Assembly: GCA_028293125.1 (NCBI GenBank)
Contig: JAQGPJ010000079.1
Span: 69,817 to 117,295, forward strand
Direction of reading: 5' to 3'
Origin: Verrucomicrobiales bacterium
GTDB lineage: Bacteria > Verrucomicrobiota > Verrucomicrobiia > Verrucomicrobiales > V1-33
DNA: 47,479 bases
Position numbers and translations under genes: made by a program. Positions 5,312 to 45,674 of this stretch are shown piece by piece. The notes below the pieces were generated by a model, which searched no databases, had not been told where the DNA came from, and saw only the letters and a list, made by a program, of their open reading frames with translations. The first letter of the stretch is position 1, and every line of letters begins with the position of its first letter.

Positions 5312-6538
5312 TCAAGGCACCGCCGGCTCGTCGCGGCCCACCCGCCAGACATGGGAGTCGCTGCGGAGGTAAATGGCGCTGCCGGAGAGGGAGGGGGTGC
5401 AGAGGATGGCCTCCTCCAGAGGGAGCTTGCCGGTGATGCGGCCCTCGGGCGCGGTGGTGTCCACGCACTGGAGAACGCCGCGCTCGCTGACCGCGTAGAG
5501 AGTGGAGCCGGACATGACCGGGCTGCCGCTGAAGGGACCCTCCAGGCGCAGCTTCCAAGGACGGTCGCCGGAGTCCAGTTCCGCGCAGCTGAGCACGCCC
5601 GCGCCGTTGATGGAGAAAACGCGGGTGCCGTGGATGACCGGGCTGGAGGTGTCGGAATTGATCTGGGCGGATTCCCAGACCATTTCTGGCGCGGTGCCGG
5701 CGGTGGTGAGGGACCAGACGGCGAGGCCCTTGCCGGGACGGGGCACGGCGAGGTGTTTGGCGCTGATGCCGCTGGAGGGAATGCTGCTGCCGGGCTTGGG
5801 CAGGCTCCACCGCTCCTTGCCGGTTTTGGGATCCAGCGCCAGAACACCCTCCACAGAGTTCACCATCACGGCGCAGCCGCCCGCGGGATCGCGCCAGATG
5901 ACAGGGGTGGTCCAGTTGGCGTTTTTGGGACGGCTGATTTTCCAGAGGTTGGTGCCGGTGGCGGGATCCAGCCCGGCGGTGAAGGAGTCGCCATCGTTTT
6001 CAATCTGCGTCACCAGCACGCCGTCGGCCAGCACCGGCGAGGAGGCGAGGCCGAGGCTGTTGCTGGCATTGGGGTAATCGACCGTGAAGCCGCGCAGCCA
6101 GATCAGATTTCCCTCCAGATCCAGACAGAACAGGTCATTGGTGGAGAAGAGGGCGAAAATCCGCTGTCCGTCGCTGGCGGGGGTGGGGGCGGCCACGCAG
6201 GTCTTTTCATGGCACATGGTGCGGCCAGTGGCCTGAAAGCGGCGCTCCCAGAGGCGTTTGCCGCTTTTCTCCTCCAGGCAGATCACGTGCAGGGTCTGCT
6301 GGTCCGGCCCGCTGGCGGCGGTGAGAAATACCTTGCCCCCCATAATGACCGGAGAGGAAAGACCGCGGCCCGGCAGTTTCTCCTTCCAGACGACATCCGC
6401 TGTGCCGGGAGAAGCCGGTGGTTTGCCATCACCTTTGCCGGAGGCATCGTTGCCGCGGAACTGCGGCCAGTCGGCACGGGCGGCGGTGGACAGGGCCGGC
6501 AGGAGGAGCAGGCCGGTGAGGAGACGGGGAAACTTCAT
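5312..6538 (-). CDS. Secreted PQQ-like beta-propeller protein
   Basis: The protein has 408 residues. It begins with Lys-Phe-Pro-Arg, a Leu-rich hydrophobic core and an Ala-Arg-Ala cleavage region, which together form a clear signal peptide. Directly after it comes WPQFRG, the mature N-terminus typical of planctomycete and verrucomicrobial outer-membrane-type propellers. Repeated units of the kind G-x-V/T-L-x-A-L/I-D-x-x-T-G-x-x-x-W (for example ALDPKTGKERW near the middle) are the W-motifs of a PQQ-type beta-propeller. In this family many members are structural or binding proteins, not PQQ dehydrogenases, and no second catalytic domain is present. It converges with the upstream PEPCK-like gene across about 60 bp and is the last gene of a minus-strand group. 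A binding or scaffold role in the envelope is inferred; the substrate is unknown. Confidence 0.85.
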   Translation of the reverse strand: MKFPRLLTGLLLLPALSTAARADWPQFRGNDASGKGDGKPPASPGTADVVWKEKLPGRGLSSPVIMGGKVFLTAASGPDQQTLHVICLEEKSGKRLWERRFQATGRTMCHEKTCVAAPTPASDGQRIFALFSTNDLFCLDLEGNLIWLRGFTVDYPNASNSLGLASSPVLADGVLVTQIENDGDSFTAGLDPATGTNLWKISRPKNANWTTPVIWRDPAGGCAVMVNSVEGVLALDPKTGKERWSLPKPGSSIPSSGISAKHLAVPRPGKGLAVWSLTTAGTAPEMVWESAQINSDTSSPVIHGTRVFSINGAGVLSCAELDSGDRPWKLRLEGPFSGSPVMSGSTLYAVSERGVLQCVDTTAPEGRITGKLPLEEAILCTPSLSGSAIYLRSDSHVWRVGRDEPAVP

Positions 6539-6579
6539 AAGATAAGCCGGAAGGGGAAGGGAAAAGCGTGAGGAGTGGT

Positions 6580-7044
6580 TTATTCGGGAAGAAGCTGGAT
6601 GGCATCACCCACTTGGATGGGGCCGCCGGTCAGGACACTGGCTCCGATGCCGGTCTGTCTGGCCAGATACTTGAAGATTTCCTTCCTGCCGGTCCGCTGC
6701 ACGATATGCAGGCAGGGGGGCCAGGCTTTACGGCCATGAAGGACCGCATGGGGGCCGATTTTGAAATCGCGCCCGATCAGGGAATTCAGGTCGATGCCGG
6801 TGGTGATGAAGTTCCGTCGCAGCAACGCCGGATCGATCTCCCCACCGTGCTCTTTGGCCAGCGATTCGAAGGGTTCGAGCTCAATCAGGGTCACATGGGC
6901 ATCCCATTCCACCACCCCGGTATAGAATCCCTTGCCGGTGGCGTAGCGGTCGTCCGGCAGACCCGTGCCCGCGATGGCCTCTACCCGCTGATGGCTGATC
7001 ATCGGGGTTTTGCTCTCCGGCGAGGTGAGGATGGCGGTGATCAT
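6580..7044 (-). CDS. MOSC domain-containing protein
   Basis: At 154 residues the protein is one stand-alone MOSC domain (molybdenum cofactor sulfurase C-terminal domain), a fold that binds molybdenum cofactor or hands sulfur to it. Landmarks are GTGLPDDRY at about residues 26-34, RRNFITTGIDLNSLIG at about 76-91, and the conserved cysteine in PPC at about residue 111, where the family usually has a Pro/Cys-rich EPCxxC-type segment. There is no signal peptide. It lies 41 bp upstream of the PQQ-propeller gene and about 80 bp downstream of the secreted jelly-roll protein, all on the minus strand, so co-transcription is possible. No molybdoenzyme gene lies nearby, so the client cannot be named. 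Confidence 0.88.
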   Translation of the reverse strand: MITAILTSPESKTPMISHQRVEAIAGTGLPDDRYATGKGFYTGVVEWDAHVTLIELEPFESLAKEHGGEIDPALLRRNFITTGIDLNSLIGRDFKIGPHAVLHGRKAWPPCLHIVQRTGRKEIFKYLARQTGIGASVLTGGPIQVGDAIQLLPE

Positions 7045-40422: not shown

Positions 40423-40965
40423 TTGAGCGATCACGAAGCCATCAGACTTCTGGAGCGGATTGAGGCCTTTGAGCTGGATGATCCGGAGGCGCAGTTTCCC
40501 TTTTCAAGCCGGCTGGCGGGCGAGCAGGGCTGGAGCCATGTCTTCGCCGCCAAAGTGATCCGGGAATACAGGCGGTTTGTGGGGCTGGCAATGGTGGCCG
40601 GGCATCCGGTTTCCCCCTCCCCGGCGGTGGACCAGGTGTGGCATCTGCATCTGGTTTACACCAAAAGCTACTGGCGGGAGATGTGCGGAGAATGCCTGGG
40701 AAGGGAATTTCACCATTCCCCGACCGCGGGCGGCGTGGAGGAGGGGGCCAAATTCCATGACTGGTATGGAAGGACGCTGGACAGCTACCGGCGGTTTTTC
40801 GGGATGGAGCCGCCGGAGGATGTATGGCCATCGCCGGAGCGCCGGCTGGAGGAGCCGGAAGAGGGGCGGTGGATTGTCAAAACCCGGTTCTGGCTGGTGC
40901 CCCGCCCGCCCTGGACGGGGCGCGGCTGGTGGCGGCAGTGGCGCCGGCGATGGGGCAAAACCTGA
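40423..40965 (+). CDS. Glycine-rich-domain (GRDP/DUF1399)-like protein
   Basis: The protein has 180 residues and begins at TTG, with AAGG four to seven bases before it. The motif pair KVIREYRRFVGLAMVAGHPVSPSPAVDQVWHLHLVYTKSYW, in outline, with W-H-x-H-L, is characteristic of this small domain, which in bacteria often precedes a TIGR04222 membrane protein. The C-terminal end is Trp/Arg-rich and basic. Its activity is unknown. The next gene starts 11 bases downstream and is the expected partner. Confidence 0.72.
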   Translation: MSDHEAIRLLERIEAFELDDPEAQFPFSSRLAGEQGWSHVFAAKVIREYRRFVGLAMVAGHPVSPSPAVDQVWHLHLVYTKSYWREMCGECLGREFHHSPTAGGVEEGAKFHDWYGRTLDSYRRFFGMEPPEDVWPSPERRLEEPEEGRWIVKTRFWLVPRPPWTGRGWWRQWRRRWGKT

Positions 40966-40976
40966 GTTTTCCTGTT

Positions 40977-41969
40977 ATGAATATCATACTCAAGCAACAG
41001 ACGGCTGGCACGCTGGCGGAAATCCCGGTGCTGGACTGGCGGGGGCCGGAATTTCTGATTTTTTACACTGTGGCCTTTGTGGCGGCGGTGGTGTGGTCCG
41101 GAAGGCGGCGGTCAAAACTGCTGGGGCGCTTTGATGTCCCGCCGGGACAGGAGGTGACCCTGAGCGACCCCTATGAAATGGCCTTCCTGGCGGGCGGAGT
41201 GGCCCGGTGCGCCCAGCTGGCGGTGGTGAGGCTGTTGGAGAAACGGGCACTGGAATGGAAATCCGGCAAATGGTTCTCCGGCGGCAGGCTGGTGGCGCGG
41301 AGTGCCCCCGGCGCGGGGATGAACGATATTGAAACGGCAGTTTATCAGGGAGCCGCGGCCGCGCGGGAGAAGGGAATCAGAGTGGATGAGGTGATGCCTC
41401 TGGCAAAACTGAAGCTGCCCCGCATTGAGGTCCGACTGGCCGCGCTGGGGCTGAGGCCCACACGGGGGGAGAGAGCCGGGCTGGGGTTCAAAGCGGTGCT
41501 CCCGCTGCTTGGTCTGATGGCGTTGGGACTGGTGAAGCTGGGGATCGGACTGGTGCGCGAAAAGCCGGTGATATTTCTGATCGTGGCGCTGGTGCTGACT
41601 TTTATCGTGACTGTCGCTCTGGCTGCCGGGATCAGATTCCTGACTCCGGGCGGCGAACTGACTCTGAAAAAGCTGAGGGAGGGCCGGAAGCCGGATTTCA
41701 ATACATCACAGCCAAATCCGGAAACGATGAGCACTTCGCTTGCCCTGATGGGGCCGGCGGCCATGGCGGGCTATGCCTTCCTGATGCCCGAGCAGCCGGC
41801 ATTCCAAAGGGAGCTTGCCCGGATGGGAGGCAGTTCCGGAGCGGCCTCCAGTGGCGGGTCATCAAGCGGCTGCGGAGGAACAAGCGGCTGCGGTGCCAGC
41901 AGCAGTGAAGGGGGCGGGTGTGGCGGTGGCGGCGGCTGCGGGGGGTGTGGCGGCGGGGGAGGAGATTGA
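40977..41969 (+). CDS. TIGR04222-type membrane protein with a Gly/Cys-rich tail
   Basis: From the ATG at 40977 the protein has 330 residues; a longer frame starts inside the upstream gene. It has an N-terminal membrane helix (FLIFYTVAFVAAVVWSG), a conserved segment (DPYEMAFLAGGVARCAQLAVVRLLEKRALEW, in outline), two further helices near 184-220, and a last 55 residues made of Gly, Ser and Cys (GCGGTSGCG, then GGCGGGGGCGGCG), possibly disulfide-linked or metal-binding. This tail layout is typical of TIGR04222 proteins, whose role is unknown. It is probably translated with the TTG-initiated gene. Confidence 0.82.
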   Translation: MNIILKQQTAGTLAEIPVLDWRGPEFLIFYTVAFVAAVVWSGRRRSKLLGRFDVPPGQEVTLSDPYEMAFLAGGVARCAQLAVVRLLEKRALEWKSGKWFSGGRLVARSAPGAGMNDIETAVYQGAAAAREKGIRVDEVMPLAKLKLPRIEVRLAALGLRPTRGERAGLGFKAVLPLLGLMALGLVKLGIGLVREKPVIFLIVALVLTFIVTVALAAGIRFLTPGGELTLKKLREGRKPDFNTSQPNPETMSTSLALMGPAAMAGYAFLMPEQPAFQRELARMGGSSGAASSGGSSSGCGGTSGCGASSSEGGGCGGGGGCGGCGGGGGD

Positions 41970-42217
41970 CAACCTTGGCGGAAACCGGAATCCGGGAAGG
42001 CAGTCCATGCCGTATTGCCGGGCTGGAGGGATTGTCTCGAAACTTCACTGACCGGGTTTATCGCCTCAGAGTGGAAGCTTTCTGTAAATATCAGTAGTGG
42101 CGTAAGTCTTAATAGTGTTGACAAATGCATATCTGAGACGCAAATCCTGCATAAGTCCGGTGTATTCAGGCAGCAGCCTATTTCCTGACGGACGAAACCG
42201 CTTTTCCGTTCACGGCC

Positions 42218-44485
42218 ATGGTCTCGTTCTTCCGTCTCCTTTTCAAAAGGGCCGCCCCCGCCAGTGCCGGGGAATCCCAGGCTTCTGAGAAACGGACCGG
42301 CAAGGCTGCCAGGACAAAGCCCGGGGCTGTTTCCGCCCTTCCCACTATCAGGCCTGGCGTGCGGGTTCCTGCCATCAGGCCTGTATTGAAGCCGGTTGTG
42401 GCCCCGCCGCCGGAACCGGTGCCGGAAGTGCCGGACGCGGTTGATCCCCTTCGGCCGGAGACAACGCTCCCAGCCTCCCCCGTTCCTCTGGAATCCGCAG
42501 CCGGAAGTCCGGACGCCGCTCTGTCCTTGGTGCAGGAAGCGGAGGAGGAGAAAAATCCGGCTCCTGACTCCCACGGGCCGAAGGCCGACAGCTCTCTGCC
42601 GGCCGCCGCCGCTCCGGTTTCGCAGGCCGCACCTGTTATCCTCCAGGAGGATCCTATCCTGCCCACCACAGTCCATGAGAGGGTTCCCGGGCTGAATTTT
42701 AAAGACAGTCCGCCGGCGGAGACCAAAGCCGCTGAAGCCCCGGAGTATCCAGCTCCCATAGAGGAGGATGCCGGATTGCCCATCCCCACAGCGGCACCTC
42801 CGGAGGAACCGCCGGCTGTGACCAGGGCAGGGACAGCGCCTCCTCAGGAGACCCAACCGGCGAAAAAAGCGGAGCCAGTGCCGCCTATCTCCAAGCCCGG
42901 TATCCTGGAACTTGGGCTGCGGGGCGCCTTGAGAACTGCGGATCCTTTGCAGCTTGGGTTTGATCCCGCCAAAATCCCGGTTTCCGTCAGGCTGGTCCTG
43001 CCGCTGGAACTGGTCCGTCCCCAGATGGTCAGAGGACGGGTGGAAATCGGGTTGGAGGATTTGAGAAACGGCGTGCTGGAGAAATACCGTCCGGCCTTCG
43101 CGCGGTCGGTGGAAGGCCTGCGGGTGGCGGTGCCGCTGTCCGAGATTTTCCCTCTGCTGCCGCAGGAGGCCATCCCCTCCCTGGCGGCCCGGAAGGAGGA
43201 GGCTTTGACCGATATGGATACCGGGACCGGCTTCGCCGGTTTGGAGTTTGTCACCCCCTTCAGTGAAAACGCGCGGGAGGAGGAAAGCCTGCGGCCGGTC
43301 CTGCCCGCAGTGGCGGCCACTCCGTTGCTGCCACCGCTGATGCCGGTTCCGGGACTGATTTGCCCTACTGTATCCGCAATGACCGCCTCCCCCGGTGGCC
43401 CCGGGCTGGGAACTGACCATTACGGGCCCGCCCAGGGAAAGCCCGCTGAAGCGAGGAAATCCGGAGTGTTCCCGGATTTGGTGCCCATCGCGGGCGCGGA
43501 GCCGGAGCCGGGGATTACAGGGGAAAAGGCAGGGACTGCGCCGTTACCTGCCGATGCCGCCGGCAAATCCTGGCCGGGACTGCAGCCATTGGTTCAATGC
43601 AGCGGAGTGCTGGCCCGTCCTCCAGGCTCCCCTGCCGCCGCCGCTCCGGAGCCTGTTAAGACAGGGGGGGGGGCGGTGCCGCTTCCTGTTTCCACCGCCC
43701 TGTCCGGGACTCCGGCAAAACCGGTTTTGGAACCGTCCCCTCTGGACGCGGATGATGACGATGATCTGGGGGAGGCGGTGTCCGCAGCGGCCTTGGCGGA
43801 ACCTCCATTCCACCCGGCCAGCCTTCTTCCTCTTCCCCCATTATCCGGATCCCCGGCCGTGAATGGAAAAGGCCCGGGCCATGTCAATGGGCATGCGGGA
43901 CACCGGGAATATGCACCGCCGGTTCCGCCGGAGCTCCCGCCCCACGCAGAGGGGCATGCCCGGATGAATGGGAAGCCACCGTCCCCATCCCTGGGGTCCG
44001 GAGCGGGATATGTGGATGCCAACAACTCCGCCACCATTTCCGGATGTGGGGCTTCCGCCGGTCCGCCATTGGAGGATCTGAATTTTGGCTGTCTGGAGGA
44101 TATCACCCAGACCACCCTGCGGGCGGTGCTGGGCACCAATCAGATGCTGACCGCCCAAGCGGTGCTGGACCACTGCGCGGCTCTGCCCGGACTGAAAGCC
44201 TGCGGGCTCCTGCGCGGTGCGCATTCCCTGAGCTGCACCACCATGTCTCCCGGGGAGGCCCGGACCTTTCTTGCCAGCGCGGCCCGCACCCTTGATTCTC
44301 TAAAGATGCTGTCCGAAGCCATGGGGCTGGGAGAGGGCGGCAATTTCACGCTGCGCACGGACCAGGGCATCCGCTCCTTCTTCCTCGGAAACGGTCTGTG
44401 TCTGGTGGTCTGGCATGAGATGCCGGTTTTTTCCTCGGGAACGCGGGAAAAACTGATGCTGGTGGCCCGGAACTTTCCTGCCTGA
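42218..44485 (+). CDS. Large Pro/Ala-rich protein with a C-terminal roadblock-like domain
   Basis: The protein has 755 residues. Residues 1-228 are Pro/Ala/Glu-rich and probably disordered. A compact part at about 229-322 has two related beta-type motifs, LVLPLELVRPQ (259-269) and LRVAVPLSEIFP (301-312), separated by a GRVEIGLEDLR segment. About 290 further residues are again Pro-rich. Residues about 618-755 read like a roadblock/LC7 domain: QTTLRAVLGTNQMLTAQAVLDHCAAL, then LKACGLLRG, and a C-terminal LVVWHEMPVF strand. Roadblock domains bind or activate MglA-type GTPases. The MglA-like gene follows after 30 bp. A G10 tract lies at 43664-43673, inside the frame (Gly-Gly-Gly-Ala). No signal peptide is seen. 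Confidence 0.78.
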   Translation: MVSFFRLLFKRAAPASAGESQASEKRTGKAARTKPGAVSALPTIRPGVRVPAIRPVLKPVVAPPPEPVPEVPDAVDPLRPETTLPASPVPLESAAGSPDAALSLVQEAEEEKNPAPDSHGPKADSSLPAAAAPVSQAAPVILQEDPILPTTVHERVPGLNFKDSPPAETKAAEAPEYPAPIEEDAGLPIPTAAPPEEPPAVTRAGTAPPQETQPAKKAEPVPPISKPGILELGLRGALRTADPLQLGFDPAKIPVSVRLVLPLELVRPQMVRGRVEIGLEDLRNGVLEKYRPAFARSVEGLRVAVPLSEIFPLLPQEAIPSLAARKEEALTDMDTGTGFAGLEFVTPFSENAREEESLRPVLPAVAATPLLPPLMPVPGLICPTVSAMTASPGGPGLGTDHYGPAQGKPAEARKSGVFPDLVPIAGAEPEPGITGEKAGTAPLPADAAGKSWPGLQPLVQCSGVLARPPGSPAAAAPEPVKTGGGAVPLPVSTALSGTPAKPVLEPSPLDADDDDDLGEAVSAAALAEPPFHPASLLPLPPLSGSPAVNGKGPGHVNGHAGHREYAPPVPPELPPHAEGHARMNGKPPSPSLGSGAGYVDANNSATISGCGASAGPPLEDLNFGCLEDITQTTLRAVLGTNQMLTAQAVLDHCAALPGLKACGLLRGAHSLSCTTMSPGEARTFLASAARTLDSLKMLSEAMGLGEGGNFTLRTDQGIRSFFLGNGLCLVVWHEMPVFSSGTREKLMLVARNFPA

Positions 44486-44515
44486 CCGCCTTTTCCTTTT
44501 CAAAGACAATCCACC

Positions 44516-45136
44516 ATGGCCGTCATCAACCACGAAACGCGGGAAGTGAGCTTCAAGCTCGTTTACTGCGGCACGCCCATGGGCGGGAAGACGACCAATC
44601 TGAACCATATTCACAGCCGCATTGCTCCCGGACAGCGCGGGGATCTGATCACGCTGGCGACCTCCGGCGACCGGACTCTGTTCTTTGATTTCCTGCCTGT
44701 CCACACCATGGTCATCAACGGCTACCGCACCAAGTTCATGCTCTACACCGTTCCGGGCCAGGTGCAGTTCAACGCCACCCGTCAGATGGTGCTGCGCGGG
44801 GTGGACGGCATTGTGTTCGTGGCGGACTCCCAGCTCGACCGCATGGAGGAGAACGTGACCTCCCTGCACGGCCTGAGACGGAATCTGGAGGAGAACGGAC
44901 TCTCTCTGGACACCATGCCGGCGGTGCTGCAGCTGAACAAACGCGACCTGCCGGCCGTGGCCCCGGTGCCCTATCTGGAATACCTGCTCAACAGCGGCGC
45001 GCGCCGCCTTCCCGTTTTCCAAGCGGCAGCCTCCGGAGGGCACAATGTTTTCGCCACTCTGAACGCGCTGGCCCAAGGGGTGCTGCGGCTGTTCCATCAG
45101 CACACCTCCCCCCCCCGGCCCGGGGTTCCCGTCTGA
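44516..45136 (+). CDS. mglA: MglA-type small Ras-like GTPase
   Basis: MglA is a bacterial Ras-like GTPase that sets cell polarity and drives motility in Myxococcus, where MglB is its activating protein. The protein has 206 residues. Walker A is GTPMGGKT at residues 19-26. The key residues match M. xanthus numbering: R53 in DRTLFFDFLP and Q82 in the VPGQ loop. The guanine motif NKRD is present in LQLNKRDLP. The 11-residue tail (SPPRPGVPV) carries a C9 tract (45108-45116). It is 30 bp after the roadblock-adaptor gene and 22 bp before another roadblock gene, which strongly suggests one transcript. Confidence 0.93.
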   Translation: MAVINHETREVSFKLVYCGTPMGGKTTNLNHIHSRIAPGQRGDLITLATSGDRTLFFDFLPVHTMVINGYRTKFMLYTVPGQVQFNATRQMVLRGVDGIVFVADSQLDRMEENVTSLHGLRRNLEENGLSLDTMPAVLQLNKRDLPAVAPVPYLEYLLNSGARRLPVFQAAASGGHNVFATLNALAQGVLRLFHQHTSPPRPGVPV

Positions 45137-45158
45137 GTCTTCCCCCTTTCCCGGCATC

Positions 45159-45674
45159 ATGGAATTCCGAAACCTCCAACCCTCCCAGAATCTGTATCTG
45201 GGCCCGGCCCTGACGCCGCAGCTGCGTCAGGCCCTGGCGCGGTTCTGCGGGGATTCGGAGGTGCGTTACGCCGCGGTCCTGGAGGAAAGCGGCACCCTCT
45301 GCGCGGATGCCGGCGATGAGTCCCTCCGGGATTCCGGGGAGACCGCGGCTCTGGCCGTTGGGGCCTTTGCGGCGGTGCAGGCGGTGGCGGCCCGGCTGGG
45401 GGACGACACCTTCGAAGGGTTTTTCCATGAAGGCAAATCCCGGCAGTTCTGCCTTATGCCTATCACGCCCCGGTTTCTGCTGCTCAGCGTGTTTCAGGCT
45501 CCCGTGAGGTTCGCGGTGGTGAAGATTTGCGCCCACAAGGTGATTGCCGGACTGCGGACCACCCTGGAGTCCTCCCCCAAGGCCGGATTCGCGCTCTCGC
45601 CGCTGAGCCTCCGCGGGGCGGCGGACGCGGGGGACTTTGTGCTGGGGCCGGACGTGCTTTTCCCGGAGGACTGA
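45159..45674 (+). CDS. Roadblock/LC7-domain protein (MglB-like)
   Basis: The protein has 171 residues. The alternating strands and helices fit a roadblock domain: YAAVLEESGTLCADAGDE near residue 30-48, AALAVGAFAAVQAVAARLG (helix), FEGFFHEGKSRQFCLMPITPRFLLLSVF (strands) and a C-terminal helix. Roadblock proteins dimerise and, as MglB, act as GTPase activators of MglA. It is directly downstream of the MglA gene. The last 35 residues are less regular. Confidence 0.82.
   Translation: MEFRNLQPSQNLYLGPALTPQLRQALARFCGDSEVRYAAVLEESGTLCADAGDESLRDSGETAALAVGAFAAVQAVAARLGDDTFEGFFHEGKSRQFCLMPITPRFLLLSVFQAPVRFAVVKICAHKVIAGLRTTLESSPKAGFALSPLSLRGAADAGDFVLGPDVLFPED

Follow-up and report, generated by a model that had tools for sequence, protein, structure and literature searches.

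A recurrent MglA and roadblock gene module of Verrucomicrobiota and its linkage to ExbB/ExbD/TonB-like motor genes

The three genes and the architecture of their products

The stretch of DNA analysed here, referred to as the window, spans 47,479 nucleotides of a Verrucomicrobiales bacterium (positions 69,817 to 117,295 of contig JAQGPJ010000079.1, assembly GCA_028293125.1) and carries three co-directional open reading frames (ORFs) on its plus strand, each with an ATG start and separated by gaps of 30 and 22 base pairs (bp). The first encodes a Pro-rich protein of 755 residues (42218-44485) whose orthologues adjoin MglA throughout the phylum sample described below and which we refer to as the adaptor; the second encodes an MglA-type Ras-like GTPase of 206 residues (44516-45136) and the third a small MglB-like roadblock protein of 171 residues (45159-45674), with pgi occupying the slot after it. 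The first-pass annotation, made from the letters alone, had placed three genes at these positions and with this spacing, and all are present as given. We suggest that they may well form one switch module, in which an MglA/MglB pair is joined by an added roadblock scaffold that would tie the switch to an envelope proton motor; our confidence in this explanation, taken as a whole, is evenly balanced.

The closest solved relatives of the GTPase in phmmer searches are the MglA proteins of Thermus (3t12, 5.5e-57) and Myxococcus (6h17, 1.1e-55). Inspection of its motifs reveals an intact P-loop of the form GxxxxGK[T/S] (G1, GTPMGGKT, residues 19-26, 44570-44593), the G3 motif TVPGQ running from T78 to Q82 (44747-44761), and a G4 motif of the form [NT]KxD (NKRD, residues 141-144, 44936-44947). 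Arg53, at the position of the intrinsic arginine finger (44672-44674), stands beside the conserved G2 threonine as R53-T54. The arginine is common to the GTPases of the intact relatives, which also share a G3 motif of the [T/S/A]VPGQ type, the exceptions being locus L065, with TVPSQ, and locus L069, which is degenerate. In Groups 2-5 of MglA, a threonine is found at the arginine position and G3 reads GTPGQ (PMC4316618). Judged by these residues, the GTPase has the features of Group 1 as defined by Wuichet and Sogaard-Andersen, and the earlier reading of an MglA-type protein with R53 and Q82 intact is confirmed, with G1, G3 and G4 all complete.

The small protein matches Pfam Robl_LC7 at residues 28-109 (30.8 bits against a cut-off of 23, 2.4e-7), as had been anticipated for the gene following the GTPase, and it provides the sole Pfam roadblock match in a genome that otherwise holds one MglA and one ExbB of the subfamily linked to the module elsewhere. 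The profile of its family finds Myxococcus MglB at 7.4e-26. We use the name MglB-like because the protein scores only 31.1 bits against NF052242, the NCBIfam MglB equivalog, far under the curated cut-off of 200. On these matches it is a putative roadblock regulator of the GTPase, of the GTPase-activating protein (GAP) or guanine nucleotide exchange factor (GEF) type, an assignment that forms part of the evenly weighted explanation given above. The small proteins of the relatives vary in form: those of L059, L063, L065 and L069 (also L062 and L067) have long C-terminal tails with a common Y[VT]F[EQ][IL]-like motif, or SGPFYF, at the end, a motif that the short protein of the window lacks, and downstream of the GTPase in L048-L054 (family f4) lies a shortened and strongly diverged small roadblock of about 120-135 residues, while GTPase and adaptor stay conserved.

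The adaptor is a more complicated case. Neither the whole protein nor its two domains taken alone gave a reliable match in Pfam or NCBIfam, and residues 618-755 by themselves have no Pfam match. An AlphaFold2 model of these C-terminal 138 residues, calculated from 39 aligned sequences, has a mean predicted local distance difference test (pLDDT) score of 89.5 and a predicted template modelling (pTM) score of 0.83, and its elements follow the order H-H-E-E-H-E-E-E-H, which includes the alpha-beta-beta-alpha-beta-beta-beta-alpha succession of the roadblock fold. Foldseek matched the model to Myxococcus MglB and to Ragulator chains (probability 1.00, E about 1e-3), and VIA-align gave Z scores of 13.0 to 3kye and 9jue (Streptomyces and Asgard roadblocks) and of 11.9 to MglB 6hjm, with matches spanning 110-115 residues at 2.5-3.3 A. 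At the sequence level, a profile that includes divergent family members reaches roadblock 7f8f at 6.5e-11 and dynein LC7b at 3.1e-8, 20 of the 36 adaptor family members match Robl_LC7 individually, and the hhalign value against the small roadblocks rises from 30% with the order-level set to 94% (1.3e-7) with phylum-wide sequences. Since an iterated version of the adaptor profile also matched small roadblocks, the profile was rebuilt on adaptor domains only, with the small roadblocks excluded and reversed sequences as control; of 72 small roadblock ORFs it recovers 63, and of the 72 reversed ones 2. By modelled fold and by family profile, the adaptor C-terminus is a roadblock domain (residues 618-755, folded 629-752; 44069-44482), which agrees with the proposal for this segment, for which the fold had been set in advance as a check.

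The remainder of the adaptor consists of a short N-terminal motif and a middle domain between two linkers. The motif, MVSFFRLLFKR (42218-42250), is amphipathic or docking-like, and an equivalent start is seen in 30 of the 39 order-level adaptors, while shuffled sequences give 3%. The adaptor N-terminus has no transmembrane helix (the highest 19-residue hydropathy is 1.5) and may serve in membrane binding or docking. Linker 1 is Pro/Ala-rich and, from its composition, probably disordered (residues 13-228, 21% Pro, 42254-42901), and linker 2 is rich in Pro, Gly and Ser (residues 323-617, 17% Pro, 43184-44068). The middle domain between them, delimited by conservation and by AlphaFold2 (residues 229-322, hidden Markov model core 234-314; 42902-43183), is a single compact fold in the model, built from four strand-plus-helix units (pLDDT 91.0, pTM 0.77). 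The first-pass annotation had seen here a duplicated beta motif at 259-269 and 301-312; these sequences do exist, but they are not separate motifs between spacers, being the second and fourth units of the single four-unit domain of about 230-314 in the model. Most order-level relatives have two copies of the domain, the first of them weaker, and the window protein has one, with a possible trace of the first copy at 81-113 (E 0.43). No solved counterpart of the middle domain was found by sequence or by fold, although this is no proof that the fold is new, and profile comparison showed no relation to the roadblock domain. On the minus strand, a 549-residue ORF (41771-43420) overlaps the adaptor gene in antisense and is most likely a high-GC shadow ORF.

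Conservation of the module across the phylum

The gene neighbourhood was followed in 57 genomes of the window's order and in an even sample of 388 genomes of the phylum. Within the order, the GTPase is present in 39 of the 57 genomes (window genome counted), and the loci of the 38 relatives all have a long, mostly Pro-rich ORF of 312-1230 residues, in some cases cut by contig ends, that ends at most 143 bp upstream of the GTPase and is matched by the adaptor C-terminal profile (38/38). Those relatives that have names are metagenome bins of Verrucomicrobiales and Verrucomicrobiia. In the phylum sample, one MglA of this type is found in 40 of the 388 genomes, and the adaptor, recognised by its roadblock or its middle domain, adjoins it in 33 of the 38 MglA genomes examined; three of these 33 adaptors are truncated by a contig end, so that the middle domain alone is visible. 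The adaptor gene is co-directional near the window's lineage and mostly divergent from mglA-mglB in the wider phylum. Three non-verrucomicrobial MglA loci returned by the same search (L080-L082) have no adaptor nearby. Conservation of gene order in related genomes, the second check set beforehand, therefore holds in the order as well as across the phylum sample. Because dozens of genomes carry orthologues in this order, we do not regard any of the three as a chance ORF; that they are neighbours by accident or slow drift, with no joint function, is extremely improbable given an adjacency that extends over many families and both orientations.

Family f2 presents a pattern of loss. In genera other than g5 the adaptor is found alone or next to a decayed GTPase in which few or none of the GTPase motifs survive, and the g5 genomes have neither adaptor nor GTPase. 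Decayed MglA homologues lie beside shortened roadblock adaptors in L126 (6172-6735), L127 (5199-5822), L128 (2719-3363) and L129 (5250-5786); with P-loop, catalytic glutamine and NKxD all changed, they look like pseudo-GTPases nearing loss.

Linkage to motor genes and possible functions of the module

Clustering of the neighbouring ORFs brought out one recurring set beside the module, consisting of MotA/TolQ/ExbB, ExbD/TolR and TonB-like genes. Pfam recognises the motor proteins (MotA_ExbB 1.1e-24, ExbD 9e-16), and the TonB C-terminal model is over its cut-off in L117. The exbB-exbD-tonB-like trio lies directly 3' of mglB in 13 loci (eight in family f3, one in f4, three in further named Verrucomicrobiia and one in another class-level family) and a few kilobases from the module in two f10 genomes. 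Four genomes in which MglA was not detected (G018, G035, G167, G407), from families f3, f15 and f19, have the adaptor gene directly upstream of the trio. The adaptor positions in such MglA-less loci are 5774-6649 in L138, 5784-6782 in L139, 5971-7248 in L116 and 4801-6459 in L117. Since the adaptor is linked to the motor genes with or without MglA, we regard it as the common element of two partner sets, that of the GTPase and that of the motor, and the early guess that it has an envelope partner gains support from this repeated linkage.

The recurrence of the module beside genes for a proton-driven motor suggests that the switch controls the motor. MglA-type switches that engage proton motors are known from Myxococcus and a few of its relatives, in which, to our knowledge, the motor genes do not lie beside mglA. 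In the explanation that we favour, the adaptor would be a cytoplasmic scaffold made up of an N-terminal amphipathic or docking motif, a middle domain flanked by Pro-rich linkers and, at the C-terminus, a second roadblock domain, which would bind MglA-GTP or pair with MglB. The middle domain and the N-terminal motif would hold the switch at the inner membrane beside an ExbB/ExbD (TolQ/TolR-like) motor with a TonB-like transducer. The site or timing of motor engagement would then be set by MglA-GTP, in parallel to the action of MglA on AglRQS and GltJ in the gliding of Myxococcus, with the GTP state placing or gating the motor through contacts of the adaptor with the motor or its transducer. Control would thereby run from switch to motor, and the output could be surface motility or polarised envelope work. 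In its boldest form, put forward here tentatively as a possibility with the balance of probability against it, the proposal is of an undescribed MglA-gated machine of the Verrucomicrobiota that joins a Ras-like switch physically to an ExbB/ExbD/TonB-like motor by means of a roadblock scaffold, a minimal counterpart of Agl/Glt for polarised motion or envelope work, with a middle domain of new fold.

A second view is that the adaptor would chiefly help to regulate the GTPase cycle, in the manner of MglC or RomY of Myxococcus, its roadblock domain pairing with MglB to alter GAP or GEF activity and its arms serving only for localisation. Heteromeric roadblock complexes that regulate small GTPases are a known theme (PMC9481161), MglC is itself a roadblock paralogue that binds MglB (PMC7949163), and the adaptor adjoins mglA-mglB in almost every MglA genome. 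A pure GAP/GEF co-factor would, however, need neither to persist alone or beside decayed pseudo-GTPases, as in the f2 genera, nor to be kept next to ExbB/ExbD in four genomes that lack a detectable MglA, and we consider this role unlikely. The same MglA-less loci, together with the retention of the adaptor in f2 where the GTPase is decayed or missing, could also be read the other way round, with the adaptor belonging primarily to an ExbB/ExbD/TonB-like envelope machine for which MglA-MglB is an optional input that was lost several times; against this, in most of the phylum, as in the family of the window, the adaptor is linked to mglAB and not to ExbB, which makes the idea very unlikely.

The proposal of a scaffold between switch and motor is itself weakened by several observations. 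Motor genes are not adjacent to the module in the window's family or in most of family f4, and no ExbB lies nearby at the divergent loci of the wider phylum. In the window genome they are unlinked, on another contig, where its only ExbB of the subfamily (G000:C99:41903-42559, L137 about 6001-6657) is followed by ExbD, with no TonB-like gene recognised beside the pair. A recognisable adjacent adaptor is absent in five of the 38 MglA genomes of the phylum sample (G251, G193, G131, G273, G156). The ExbB subfamily occurs in 54 of the 57 relatives whether MglA is present or not, and so has work of its own; as its distribution does not track MglA, we dropped co-occurrence and argue from gene linkage only. 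Finally, PilT-family ATPases are found in 57 of 57 relatives, which makes type IV pili a possible output. The module could then control the polarity or number of pili, with the adaptor as an SgmX-like effector and the ExbB linkage secondary, in keeping with the action of Myxococcus MglA through SgmX and FrzS (PMC12288465). Yet PilT does not track MglA, being present in f2/g5 genomes without the module, and the neighbourhood clustering gave no prominent pilus gene, whereas exbB/exbD/tonB-like genes did stand out; we therefore judge control of pili to be quite unlikely.

These genomes offer a comparative system for the role of a roadblock protein between a GTPase and a motor. Switch, scaffold and motor genes share one cluster in several families of Verrucomicrobiota, and natural losses have split the parts into switch with scaffold, scaffold with motor, and scaffold with decayed GTPase. 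No such system has been described for the phylum in the literature searched. The direct prediction is surface motility or cell polarity in Verrucomicrobiota.

Upstream of the module, the window also contains an ORF (40824-41969) with a Cys/Gly-rich tail (GCGGTSGCG...GGCGGGGGD) and no Pfam match.

Comparison with known systems

Our literature search found neither mglA encoded together with a large multidomain roadblock scaffold nor linkage of mglAB to ExbB/ExbD/TonB-like genes, and several described systems share individual features with the module. One is the polarity switch of Myxococcus xanthus, which has in common with it an MglA with R53 and TVPGQ, an adjacent MglB-like gene and more than one roadblock protein per GTPase. 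The first-pass annotation had contrasted the present arrangement with a Myxococcus MglA that works with a single MglB, which does not hold: MglB dimers act as GAP on MglA-GTP and RomR/RomX as GEF, and further components of the circuit are RomY and MglC (PMC9481161, PMC7949163, PMC12288465). What differs here is the nature of the second roadblock protein, a Pro-rich scaffold of 312-1230 residues whose gene adjoins mglA and whose middle beta-alpha domain was not matched among solved structures.

A similar resemblance extends to the output side. The targets of Myxococcus MglA-GTP include MreB, AglZ, AglR and GltJ, of which AglR is a PF01618 protein, and GltG is TonB-like (PMC3169522, PMC12288465). 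Like Agl/Glt, the system considered here combines an MglA-type switch with a MotA/TolQ/ExbB (PF01618) and ExbD/TolR (PF02472) motor and a TonB-like partner, but some lineages have the motor genes in physical linkage with mglAB, and a single ExbD-type gene takes the place of AglQ and AglS. Agl/Glt is marked by a TolQ-like and two TolR-like genes, and the linked clusters hold one ExbB, one ExbD and a TonB-like gene; as they lack the second TolR-like gene, and as no search for Glt proteins was made, we do not class the system as Agl/Glt.

The coupling of one MglA to two roadblock proteins also has precedents, in a small subset of Group 1 systems with two MglBs and in Group 3 (PMC4316618), although the Group 3 neighbours are receiver/winged-helix proteins, unlike those of the present module. 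That survey lists Verrucomicrobia under Group 5, not Group 1, and the sections of it consulted describe no Pro-rich multidomain roadblock scaffold. In the actinobacterial conservons (CvnA-D), a small GTPase and a roadblock protein likewise share a conserved cluster, but the G4 motif and arginine finger of the present GTPase (NKRD, R53) differ, and neither the CvnA histidine kinase nor CvnC, which characterise these Group 2 systems, is part of the window's three-gene set. Further afield, Ragulator/LAMTOR and the dynein roadblocks form scaffolds around small GTPases or motors, and the adaptor domain is structurally similar to them, a remote resemblance at about 7-16% identity.

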